In this document: positions 17,804 through 48,624 of the stretch, piece by piece | Numbering within the stretch: position 1 is the stretch's first letter | Layout of the letters: every line of letters begins with the position of its first letter | DNA from: Zavarzinia marina | Lineage (GTDB): Bacteria; Pseudomonadota; Alphaproteobacteria; Zavarziniales; Zavarziniaceae | Reading direction: 5' to 3' | DNA: 64,000 nucleotides | Assembly (NCBI RefSeq): GCF_021568905.1 | Contig: NZ_JAKGSB010000001.1 | Location: 558,001-622,000 of the forward strand | Translations under genes and position numbers: made by a program | Notes under the pieces: generated by a model | Told to the model about the DNA's origin: nothing | Database searches by the model: none | The model's input: the letters and a program-made list of their open reading frames with translations, nothing else

Positions 17804-17880
<77 letters not shown>

Positions 17881-17944: not shown

Positions 17945-18436
17945 TCAGGGCGCCGGCACCCAGATTTCGAGGCCGCCGAGGCCCGTTGCCGCATCGAAGG
18001 CCGGGCCGTAGACCTCGACCATTTCCACCCCCTCGGGCGTCGGGCCGCCGGCCTGACAGCACCAGGCCATCGCCGCGCCGCAGGTCGCCGCGATGCCGGA
18101 GATATGGCCGGTATGGGGAAAGACGGCCCAGTCGCGGGCCGGGACATGAATGCCGGCGAATGGGGCGGGCAATCCGTCCAGGGTCGCGACCTCGACGGCG
18201 CAGAGATAGTCGAAGCCCTCGGCGGCTTCGGCCGGGCGGAGCGAAAGACCGAAGCTGCGGCCCGGAAGTTCGCCGGGCATATGGCCGACATGGGGGCCGA
18301 AGCGCTGCCAGAGCGCGGGGATCTGCGCCACGGTCTCGATCGTGAAATGGCCCCGCAGGCCAGCCACCGTGAAGGCATCGACCGCGCGAATTTCCGCGGG
18401 CTGCGGGGCAGGGGGACGGGGTTCGGTCGTCTGCAT
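17945..18436 (-). CDS. GyrI-like / AraC effector-binding-domain protein
   Basis: A 163-residue stand-alone effector-binding domain of the GyrI-like (SOUL/BRP) type. The segments VAGLRGHFTIETVAQIPALWQRFGPH near the N terminus and FAGIHVPARDWAVFPHTGHI in the middle match the family pattern of a small-molecule-binding pocket. The C terminus ends GLEIWVPAP, the characteristic final strand. There is no helix-turn-helix, so it is not a full regulator. ATG 18436 is preferred; an in-frame start 14 codons upstream (18478) is possible. The gene sits alone between two identical tRNA-Asp units. Its ligand is unknown. Confidence 0.75.
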   Translation of the reverse strand: MQTTEPRPPAPQPAEIRAVDAFTVAGLRGHFTIETVAQIPALWQRFGPHVGHMPGELPGRSFGLSLRPAEAAEGFDYLCAVEVATLDGLPAPFAGIHVPARDWAVFPHTGHISGIAATCGAAMAWCCQAGGPTPEGVEMVEVYGPAFDAATGLGGLEIWVPAP

Positions 18437-18523
18437 GGCTTCGGTCCGGGGCGGTACGCGGTGGGCGCAGCCTACCATGCGAGACGCGCCATGCTGAATC
18501 GTCGCTTCCCGGCAAATAGGCTT

Positions 18524-18570: not shown

Positions 18571-18647
<77 letters not shown>

Positions 18648-18663
18648 CCGCGAAGACGAAGAA

Positions 18664-18696
18664 AAGCCGCCGCCCTCCGGGGTCGGCGGCTTTTTC
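18664..18696 (+). terminator. Rho-independent terminator of tRNA-Asp copy 2
   Basis: The same AGCCGCCG/CGGCGGCT stem as copy 1, followed by TTTTT. Confidence 0.85.
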
Positions 18697-18735: not shown

Positions 18736-18770
18736 CTATACAATTTGACGAAATATGTTCGATTGTATAG
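18736..18770. promoter_or_regulatory. 35-bp inverted repeat, likely operator overlapping the promoter of the EBP-like gene
   Basis: Nine-base arms CTATACAAT and ATTGTATAG are perfect inverted repeats separated by 17 bases. A TTGACG (18745-18750) sits inside as a possible -35, and TATAGG in the right arm as a possible -10, although their spacing is short. The AT-rich block stands out from the GC-rich surroundings. It lies 40 bases before the gene pair that ends in a TetR regulator, so autoregulation by that TetR is the natural reading. Confidence 0.65.
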
Positions 18771-18809
18771 GCCTGATCCGGGTAGCGCGGATAAGGGGGA
18801 GGAACCACC

Positions 18810-19607
18810 ATGCGCGAACTGCATCCGAATCTGGGACGGGGCGCCACGGGCCTGCGCCTTCGGGTCTATCAATTGTCGCTGTTCCTGACACTGGTCTTCG
18901 CCGGCGGCGCCTTCGCCCTGGTGGCGCTGGGGGTCATTCCCGGCACGCCCATCGACATCTATTCGTCCTGGGTGATCCTGGCGGTGCTGTTCGTGCCCTT
19001 CATCGCGCTGATGGACGGGGCGGGGGAGAAGCGCACGACGCTCGAGAAATGGTCGGAGTTCGGCTTCGTCTGGCTTCTCGTCTCCGGCATCGCCCAGACG
19101 TTCTGGGAGCTGCCGTGGTTCTTCCTCGATCTCACCGGCGTCGTGCACGGCATCGGGCCGGAGGACGGCCATCTCTGGGCCTGGTGGGTCTATGGCGGCG
19201 CGGACACGCGCTACATCACCTCGAATCCGACCATCGCGGGGCTCGAATTCATGGCCGGCTTCTCCGGTCCGTTCGAACTCTACGCCTGGTATCTCTACAA
19301 GCGCGGCGCCAACCTCGGGGACAAGATCGGGGCGTGCTGGATGGCGTTGATCATCGGCGTCGGCCTGACCTATATGACCGGCGTCTTCTTCGTCGCCGAA
19401 TGGCATGTGGGCTGGGCCAATATCCAGCAGGGCGCGCTCGGCTTCTGGCTGAAGTTCGTCGGCCTCAACGTGCCCTGGATCGTCGCCCCGGTGATCGCCC
19501 TGCCGGCCGCGATCATGGAGCTGGCGCATCTCTACCGCGTCGACGGCTACGAGACGGCGCGGCGCGAGATGGCGGCGACGCCGGCACGCCGCCGGGCCGT
19601 CGGCTGA
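18810..19607 (+). CDS. Emopamil-binding-protein-like (EXPERA domain) integral membrane protein
   Basis: A 265-residue protein with about five membrane segments. The central part aligns by eye with eukaryotic EBP (sterol delta8-delta7 isomerase): a TM with GIAQTFWELPWF, then ADTRYI, a TM with GLEFMAGFSGP, GLTYMTGVFFVAEWHVG, and VGLNVPWIVAP. EBP active-site positions appear kept: Glu100, Glu146, Asn220 and Trp223; the EBP histidine in the second TM appears as Gln96. The family includes sterol isomerases, sigma-2 receptor/TMEM97 and lipid-binding relatives, so the substrate is open. ATG 18810 follows a GGGGGAGG site. The TetR gene follows 10 bases later and an operator-like inverted repeat lies upstream. 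Confidence 0.72.
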   Translation: MRELHPNLGRGATGLRLRVYQLSLFLTLVFAGGAFALVALGVIPGTPIDIYSSWVILAVLFVPFIALMDGAGEKRTTLEKWSEFGFVWLLVSGIAQTFWELPWFFLDLTGVVHGIGPEDGHLWAWWVYGGADTRYITSNPTIAGLEFMAGFSGPFELYAWYLYKRGANLGDKIGACWMALIIGVGLTYMTGVFFVAEWHVGWANIQQGALGFWLKFVGLNVPWIVAPVIALPAAIMELAHLYRVDGYETARREMAATPARRRAVG

Positions 19608-47661: not shown

Positions 47662-48624
47662 ATGGCAACGACTTTGAGCACGGAAGATGTCGTGCCGCAG
47701 GCCAGGCTGGGCTTCTGGGCCGATCTGGTCTGCGACAGCTATGTCGGGCTCGATTGCCGGGCGGCCGATCCTCGTGACTTTTCAGGTTCCATAGATCTGT
47801 TCGATCTGCATCGGGCGCGGATTTCCGAGGCCCAGGCGGATGCCCACACGCTGGTTCGCTCGCGCCGGCAGATCGCGCGCTCGGGCGCCGATGATTTCCT
47901 GCTCAGCATTCAATTGGACGGCCGCATGGTATTCGGCATGAACGGGCAGGAAGCGCCGGTGCCGCCGGGCAGCTTCGTCCTCTATGACGCCAGCCGCGAA
48001 TACAGCCTGCATTTCCCGGTGCGCACGTCGCAGGTCGTCCTGCAGGTGCCGCGCCATGAATTGGCGCGCCGGATCGGCCATGCCGAAGCCGCCTGCGGGC
48101 GGGTCATTTCTGGCGGTGGCGGCATTCATCGCGGCGTCTTCGCGTTGCTGACCGCGCTGCCGCTTGCGTGCCGCACGGCATCAGCCGAACAGATCGCTGC
48201 CTTGGAACAGCACGCCCTGGATCTCCTGGCGTGCAGCTTGCGGGCCGATCTTCCGACAGGCCGTTTCGAATTATCCGACCCGCGTTTCGCGGCCCTGATG
48301 CTGGCCAAGACCTATATCGACCGGAACCTGCGGGATCCCGCGCTGAATCGGGCCCGTATCGCCGCCGCCGTCGGGCGCAGCGTGCGTGACCTCAATCGTC
48401 TCTTCGCGGCGGAGGGGCAATCGGTCACCAGCTATGTTCGCAACCAGCGTCTGTCGCGCTGCCGGGATGATCTCGGCAATCCGGCGCTTTCCCATAAAGG
48501 CGTGTCGCAGATCGCTTTCGACTGGGGATTCGGCGACGCCGCCCATTTCGCGCGCTGCTTTCGCGCGCGCTTCGGGCAATCCGCGCTCGACTATCGCCGC
48601 GCGGCGCCGGCGCTCAGGTCCTGA
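47662..48624 (+). CDS. AraC-family transcriptional regulator
   Basis: A 320-residue regulator. The N-terminal sensor domain (about 1-190) is of the AraC-binding-like type found in regulators of aromatic and nitrile pathways (DFLLSIQLDGRMVFGMNG, PGSFVLYDASREYSLHF). The C-terminal domain carries two helix-turn-helices (ARIAAAVGRSVRDLNRLF and GVSQIAFDWGFGDAAHFARCFRARFGQSALDYR). It is divergent from the nitrilase, which is probably its target. ATG 47662 is chosen; a TTG 7 codons upstream is also open. It overlaps the end of the next gene by 11 bases, convergently. Confidence 0.9.
   Translation: MATTLSTEDVVPQARLGFWADLVCDSYVGLDCRAADPRDFSGSIDLFDLHRARISEAQADAHTLVRSRRQIARSGADDFLLSIQLDGRMVFGMNGQEAPVPPGSFVLYDASREYSLHFPVRTSQVVLQVPRHELARRIGHAEAACGRVISGGGGIHRGVFALLTALPLACRTASAEQIAALEQHALDLLACSLRADLPTGRFELSDPRFAALMLAKTYIDRNLRDPALNRARIAAAVGRSVRDLNRLFAAEGQSVTSYVRNQRLSRCRDDLGNPALSHKGVSQIAFDWGFGDAAHFARCFRARFGQSALDYRRAAPALRS

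Follow-up and report, generated by a model that had tools for sequence, protein, structure and literature searches.

EBP and CYP51 are known from textbooks as enzymes that build sterols. After CYP51 and either a C-14 or an 8,14 reductase have acted, a double bond is present in the sterol at C8 or C8(14). In human EBP, the 3-beta-hydroxysteroid delta8,delta7-isomerase, His76 is the proposed proton donor, with Glu80 and Glu122 as its partners; activity is wholly lost in the His76Ala and Glu80Ala variants and mostly lost in Glu122Ala and Trp196Ala, while amines are held through Glu122, Asn193 and Trp196, and diverse drugs are bound (PMC6549186). Eleven residues determine the activity of the human enzyme (Moebius 1999, as cited in PMC4263179), and conserved acidic residues at human positions 80 and 108 are a feature of the EXPERA/EBP family (PMC4263179). 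Members of the family can be turned to a new isomerisation, as in plant biosynthesis by the triterpenoid isomerases ISM1 and ISM2, which are 45 and 53% identical to a plant sterol isomerase (PMC9999417). A C. elegans orthologue of EBP, mentioned in PMC13277303, is suggested there to move delta7 to delta8(14).

Bacterial EBP homologues have also been described. The gene for one, in Mycobacterium sp. UM_CSW, shares an island with a TetR gene and a gene for a probable cholesterol dehydrogenase (PMC4818103). Another belongs to Nannocystis, which makes its own sterols (PMC10152446). Since bacteria that make sterols are reported to have homologues of EBP or of a C-8 isomerase (PMC10152446, PMC13277303), the premise of the sequence-only reading that bacteria usually lack sterol isomerisation has to be softened. 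In mycobacteria, CYP51 with a ferredoxin is paired with a protein of the 8,14-Bsr type, and the host has steroid-degradation genes; 8,14-Bsr activity is reported for the mycobacterial enzyme, its active-site residues Y37, Y43, Y78, Y80, D133 and D136 have been probed, and the same source cites a Mycobacterium that turns lanosterol into a C19 steroid unsaturated at 8(14) (PMC13277303). To a similar pair, Zavarzinia, a proteobacterium, adds a cycloisomerase, genes resembling those of C-4 demethylation, and EBP.

The window analysed here is the whole stretch of 64,000 nucleotides, positions 558001-622000 of contig C9 in the Zavarzinia marina genome (G000). The EBP gene begins with an ATG 6 bases 3' of a purine-rich ribosome-binding sequence, and a TetR gene starts 10 bases after its stop codon (Table 1). 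What is, by eye, the start of a nuo operon lies downstream of this unit from 20575. The inverted repeat ahead of the unit, a possible terminator, was left unflagged on the forward strand by a consensus scan.

Table 1. Features of the EBP unit, in coordinates of the window
Feature	Position	Strand	Basis
tRNA-Asp upstream of EBP	18571-18647		
Inverted repeat with T-run, 3' of tRNA-Asp; candidate terminator preceding the EBP unit	18662..18694	+	sequence; within inverted repeat I1
Perfect 9-base dyad CTATACAAT-N17-ATTGTATAG, operator-like; motif common to CYP51 promoters	18736..18770	.	inverted repeat I7; genome pattern scan; matrix scan
Purine-rich ribosome-binding sequence AGGGGGAGGA	18794..18803	+	read from sequence
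EBP/EXPERA-family membrane protein, His76-to-Gln variant	18810..19607	+	ORF, 265 aa; PF05241; human EBP match; residue alignment
TetR-family regulator, 191 aa	19618..20193	+	PF00440; 33-38% identity with TetR proteins adjoining or close to sterol clusters

That this gene encodes an EXPERA/EBP homologue, as had been proposed from the letters, is borne out by profile searches. The protein scores just above the curated cut-off of PF05241 (27.4 against 25.7 bits, E 4.5e-6), as do its homologues at L002 (29.8 bits) and L003 (26.6 bits); the homologue at L009 falls just under it as a protein (24.3) and just over it in the genome search (27). NCBIfam holds no matching family for the window protein. 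Human EBP (PDB 6oht) is matched at E 5e-6 by the single window sequence and at E 1.5e-13 by a profile of five bacterial sequences, with the next PDB match at 0.048, and is by these searches the sole convincing PDB relative. The window protein and three close homologues aligned to the human core in hhalign with a probability of 93% (E 3e-7), compared with 0.4% for a single membrane protein of G000 used as control; identity over this core, within the shared EXPERA domain, is 26-29%. Hydropathy gives four strong membrane peaks. The AlphaFold2 model, built from three sequences only (mean pLDDT 43.8, pTM 0.32), is too poor to judge the EBP fold. Judged by sequence, then, the protein is an EXPERA member with Gln in place of His.

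We compared the 11 determinants of human EBP activity in an alignment of the window protein, its three close homologues and a Planktothrix homologue. Both EXPERA acidic positions are present, as E100 (human 80) and D132 (human 108). The sequence-only reading had two membrane glutamates, an Asn and a Trp kept and the active-site His replaced by Gln, and the alignment agrees: E100, E146, N220 and W223 correspond to human E80, E122, N193 and W196, and Q96 stands at H76. With W, Y, D, R and Y also kept at human 101, 104, 108, 110 and 111, nine of the 11 residues are retained in the window protein and the three close homologues. The two that are missing are the same in all four sequences, His76 being Gln and Thr125 an alignment gap, and the window protein falls short of the complete set of a functional delta8,delta7-sterol isomerase. 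Glutamine cannot donate a proton where histidine can. Either E100 and E146 would supply the proton, therefore, or the reaction would be a different one, or the protein would only bind its ligand; the substitution itself argues for an altered reaction.

Binding without catalysis, by an EXPERA protein that serves as a sensor, carrier or sink for sterols or amines, would suit Q96 and the Thr125 gap, and the counterparts of E122, N193 and W196 that are kept are those by which human EBP holds amines (PMC6549186). Pairwise dN/dS among the window gene and its three close homologues is 0.135-0.258, however, so the gene is under purifying selection, and under that selection the counterparts of E80, E122 and seven more activity residues have been kept. 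A promoter motif shared with CYP51, described below, is also less well explained without a reaction, and we consider a purely binding role quite unlikely.

A full EBP gene is present in three of the six Zavarzinia genomes (G000, G002 and G004). A scan of genome contigs for close EBP relatives gave two loci, L002 and L003; L002 encodes an 85% relative, and its contig is also found in G002, a genome of the same genus as G000. The position of the G002 gene matches that of the window gene; it is flanked by two tRNA-Asp genes and has no TetR. The G004 gene lies in a different place, directly before a CYP51-ferredoxin fusion. G001 (100% complete) has an EBP match of only 42 residues with a stop inside, near tRNA-Asp and nuoA, which is possibly a remnant; at L010 of this genome (about 2650-2770), the short EBP-like 3' match is overlapped by an ORF that by eye encodes an ankyrin-repeat protein. 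No EBP match was found in G003 (99% complete) or G005 (75%). The window's tRNA-Asp genes (17804-17880 and 18571-18647) have near-identical flanks and enclose a GyrI-like/Cass2 effector-binding gene on the reverse strand (17945-18478). At L008 the tRNA-Asp pair holds EBP instead, so the spot may exchange cargo.

In wider samples, PF05241 is sparse: 4 of 385 genomes in the class sample exceed the cut-off (5 at E up to 0.001), as does 1 of 398 in the phylum sample, G000 itself (3 at E up to 0.001). The ORF at L011, from the class sample, is shorter and by eye encodes an EXPERA protein of another kind. Viral contigs held no EBP relative, and the plasmid search returned Planktothrix only. So patchy a distribution, and the location among tandem tRNA-Asp genes, might be taken as the mark of a recently acquired gene with no role in its host, but the dN/dS values and the conserved promoter motif make this highly improbable.

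In G004, genes for SnoaL-like, cycloeucalenol-cycloisomerase-like, FA_hydroxylase-domain and 3Beta_HSD proteins follow further along from EBP and CYP51. Relatives of these cluster proteins lie at approximately 3.0-13.2 kb of contig C13 in G000, without EBP, and likewise in G001, G003 and G005; EBP of G000, on C9, is thus unlinked to its sterol cluster. Because three cluster-bearing sister genomes lack an intact EBP gene, EBP is accessory and dispensable to the cluster. CYP51-ferredoxin, the SnoaL-like (8,14-sterol-reductase-like) protein and the cycloisomerase-like protein are encoded in all five genomes from which stretches were fetched; in the sixth, G002 (74% complete), the cycloisomerase was the sole cluster gene sought and gave no match. 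Genes for ALDH, FA_hydroxylase and HSD proteins occur in four of the five stretches, that of G005 being 20 kb of a 46-kb contig, and in G003 over 10 kb separates them from CYP51. For unannotated stretches we called genes from open frames and GC bias, and where GMC, ALDH and epimerase proteins had no family call their labels were assigned by eye.

The identities of these proteins vary in firmness. CYP51-ferredoxin of G000 aligns over residues 14-550 of 554 with PDB 6mcw, which we take to be the Methylococcus enzyme, at E 3e-195, ahead of mycobacterial and eukaryotic CYP51. All six of the probed 8,14-Bsr residues are present in the SnoaL-like protein of G000, the one copy checked, at an ungapped offset of 12, which alone among 80 offsets tried gives at least three of them. 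Pfam SnoaL_2 matches its G004 orthologue, and the G000 copy has no Pfam match. Relatives of this protein were also seen elsewhere, at 53% identity in the actinomycete Nonomuraea gerenzanensis (L068, 8001-8507; NZ_LT559118.1), where the stretch has no annotation listed, and at 28-32% in ten Sphingobium and one Novosphingobium plasmid records.

The cycloisomerase-like protein has no match in Pfam or NCBIfam, and a search of plasmids for it gave none. In BLAST against Arabidopsis CPI1 it reached 35-37% identity (E 1e-44 and 7e-48), compared with E 2.5 for the best of 200 shuffles. Its cycloeucalenol-cycloisomerase label comes from this comparison rather than from a curated family, and the query is presumed to be the CPI1 sequence. 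Among NCBIfam models, the 340-aa SDR is closest to HpnA (156 of 368 bits) and then SdmB (110 of 600), the 396-aa HSD to OleD (253 of 580 bits) and the GMC protein to choline dehydrogenase (328 of 605 bits). Since the best models for the SDR and the HSD are not sterol enzymes, that for the GMC protein is choline dehydrogenase, and all scores are below cut-off, a role in C-4 demethylation is a guess from domain types.

The dyad before EBP ties the gene to this cluster. With up to one mismatch, ATACAA-N19-TTGTAT occurs twice across the G000 genome, once ahead of EBP and once approximately 30 bases before CYP51-ferredoxin, at one place in G004, before EBP, and nowhere in the remaining four genomes. 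The reversed pattern, used as a control, occurs once in G000 and in none of the other five, so a single pattern match means little and the weight lies on where the matches fall and on a matrix scan. A longer related motif is visible in all five CYP51 promoters and all three Zavarzinia EBP promoters examined. A matrix made only from the CYP51 promoters of G001, G003 and G005 gives its best score in the 64-kb window to the EBP promoter, at 21.9 bits, while the best score in 60 dinucleotide shuffles was 14.5 and the mean of the bests 7.4. The second-best separate site of the window, at 47772, reaches 12.2 bits, under the best shuffle, and is probably there by chance. The same matrix places the EBP promoter at the top in L008 (32.0 bits), in the G004 stretch the CYP51 promoter first with the EBP promoter second (38.3 and 32.5 bits; next separate site 13.9) and the CYP51 promoter at the top in C13 of G000 (37.6 bits; next separate site 11.8).

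A seven-site matrix found nothing above 9.1 bits in approximately 81 kb around the KshA-type genes of G000 and G003. The motif is therefore not a general promoter, and we rejected the idea that the KshA and KstD genes belong to the same motif regulon. Part of the dyad motif may be promoter, since TTKAC and TATAG elements overlap it; a consensus scan detected no sigma-70 promoter. Because EBP shares its promoter motif with CYP51 and directly adjoins CYP51 in G004, its link to the sterol genes is well supported, and it very probably belongs to the sterol regulon.

Control of EBP by TetR, as the sequence-only reading had it, is plausible, and the evidence differs between loci. The window has both features of a TetR-controlled unit, an adjacent TetR gene and an operator-like promoter dyad, and TetR is divergent from EBP at L003. 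No relative of the window TetR is found in L008 (9.6 kb) or L009 (15 kb), although both carry the EBP promoter motif. The window TetR is 33-38% identical to the TetR proteins beside CYP51 in G003, G005 and a gammaproteobacterial MAG, and likewise to those found more widely around the clusters of G001 and G004; other TetR proteins of the cluster stretches align to it weakly. G000 has a second TetR of this subfamily on contig C17 (36% identity to that of the window), so the window TetR is a candidate regulator at the dyad. At L069 (207-4309) the C17 protein adjoins two genes that by eye form a DUF1302/DUF1329 pair, and G004 has a comparable trio close to its cluster.

The neighbouring TetR could also serve a xenobiotic resistance protein, induced by cationic amphiphilic compounds. 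EBP binds diverse drugs (PMC6549186), and a fungal EBP gene belongs to a xenobiotic-response regulon (PMC6050962). Yet the motif is one common to sterol demethylase promoters, and two of the three Zavarzinia EBP loci are without a relative of the window TetR, which leaves resistance an improbable function.

By its gene content, the host seems unable to build sterols. A squalene/oxidosqualene cyclase domain (PF13243) was found in none of the six Zavarzinia genomes, two of them 74-75% complete, while the Bacillus subtilis and Methanosarcina acetivorans controls match. The squalene-epoxidase model finds nothing in G000 and matches weakly in two of the six genomes (G003 and G004), as well as in the E. 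coli and Caulobacter controls. Zavarzinia is included in a footnote, apparently of genera without shc, in PMC12583986. Of the ligands suggested earlier, namely a hopanoid, a steroid or an amine, the hopanoid is disfavoured, PF13243 being the squalene-hopene-cyclase-type C-terminal domain, and a steroid or sterol is favoured by the CYP51 motif, the adjacency to CYP51 and the KshA and KstD relatives; on a xenobiotic amine as ligand the evidence points neither way.

Relatives of steroid breakdown enzymes are present. KshA_C (PF19298) matches strongly in all six genomes (E 3.9e-82 to 2.1e-84), and among the controls only Corynebacterium glutamicum matches, below cut-off. The G000 KshA protein aligns with solved structures of KshA at E 3e-140. 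Approximately 4 kb away is a KstD-like protein that matches the 3-oxosteroid 1-dehydrogenase 7p18 at 7e-186 and stays under the NCBIfam cut-off (548 of 788 bits, NF005882). G000 thus encodes relatives of both KshA and KstD, the pair by which aerobic 9,10-seco steroid degradation is recognised. C1 of G000 (L054, 7820-12468) encodes another Rieske protein that has a KshA_C domain and resembles SdmA weakly; by eye, its neighbours are SDR, MaoC-like and thiolase-like genes.

These relatives bear on whether the sterols would be broken down or kept. Scavenged eukaryotic sterols could instead be remodelled by EBP and the cluster to a membrane sterol that the cell prefers. In favour of this, the cluster resembles the tailoring that follows cyclisation in eukaryotes, no KshA or KstD was seen inside it, and the KshA-type genes are without the shared motif. 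Remodelling is nonetheless unlikely, given KshA relatives in every genome and the KstD relative in G000, and 8,14-Bsr-type enzymes occur in sterol degraders too (PMC13277303).

A similar gene set is found in a second class. The gammaproteobacterial MAG G747 (L003) encodes an EBP of 63% identity that keeps the Gln. On another contig it has HSD, C4-oxidase, ALDH, TetR, CYP51-ferredoxin and cycloisomerase genes, with an epimerase and a GMC oxidoreductase assigned by eye; a search of the 40-kb stretch gave no 8,14-Bsr-like match. Between the TetR and CYP51 genes there are motif-like sites of 20-24 bits. A match to the shared motif was not obtained at the L003 EBP promoter, where the EBP-TetR gap scores 10.6 bits, against 14.7 at another L003 site. 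The occurrence of EBP together with the sterol gene set in two classes points to a working link or to joint transfer.

A plasmid EBP of the cyanobacterium Planktothrix agardhii (WP_227398361.1; PF05241 47.6 bits) is the next homologue, 33% identical to the window protein, and 37.6% over residues 74-220, and also lies beside sterol genes. Unlike the window protein, it keeps all 11 activity residues, including His76, and its cluster, with squalene epoxidase and cyclase domains, looks biosynthetic. This apparent sterol-biosynthesis cluster (L018, 11557-34123, on plasmid p2 of strain No.2A, NZ_LR882940.1) comprises squalene/phytoene synthase, the squalene epoxidase and cyclase domains, P450s, three Rieske proteins, an ERG4/ERG24 reductase, an SDR, a carbamoyltransferase and EBP.

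We propose that the window EBP is a sterol double-bond isomerase that acts with the remote sterol-tailoring cluster on exogenous methylated sterols, toward their breakdown, and give this reading a probability of about 0.54. The substrates would be sterols taken from outside rather than made by the cell. CYP51-ferredoxin would take off the 14-methyl group, the 8,14-Bsr-like protein would reduce the diene left by that step, and the cycloeucalenol-cycloisomerase-like protein would open 9,19-cyclopropyl rings. The C-4 methyls may be removed by the GMC oxidoreductase, aldehyde-dehydrogenase, C4-oxidase and 3-beta-HSD-like proteins. EBP would then move the remaining double bond from C8 or C8(14) towards C7, making C9 and ring B accessible to KshA and KstD; shifting an 8(14) bond to C7 in this way could relieve a block before C9 hydroxylation by KshA. 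A TetR of the window subfamily is predicted to bind the dyads before EBP and CYP51 and to be released by a sterol or an early product.

Several observations count against the isomerase reading. The proton donor is lost, three of the five cluster genomes are without an intact EBP gene, and EBP is unlinked in G000. The C-4 genes are loosely identified, the G747 stretch has no 8,14-Bsr-like match, and KshA and KstD are without the motif. These points weaken a needed pathway isomerase more than they weaken an EBP-family protein of the sterol regulon. Sterol isomerase-type activity, whether for breakdown or for remodelling, is still probable, and a place in a pathway for exogenous sterols is the most likely one for the window EBP, ahead of a response to hopanoids or to xenobiotics in general.

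Among the titles and abstract openings listed in searches of open-licence literature, none described such an EBP/CYP51 arrangement. Here, relatives of EBP and CYP51 appear co-regulated with a plant-type cycloisomerase in bacteria without a detected cyclase and with steroid-ring-opening enzymes. A more far-reaching interpretation, which we offer as speculative, is that the Gln variant forms a new EBP subclass with its own reaction, moving the 8(14) bond, or the bond from cyclopropane opening, to C7. Proteobacteria would then break down lanosterol- and cycloartenol-type sterols with the eukaryotic post-cyclisation pathway as a catabolic front end, held in one TetR-type regulon.
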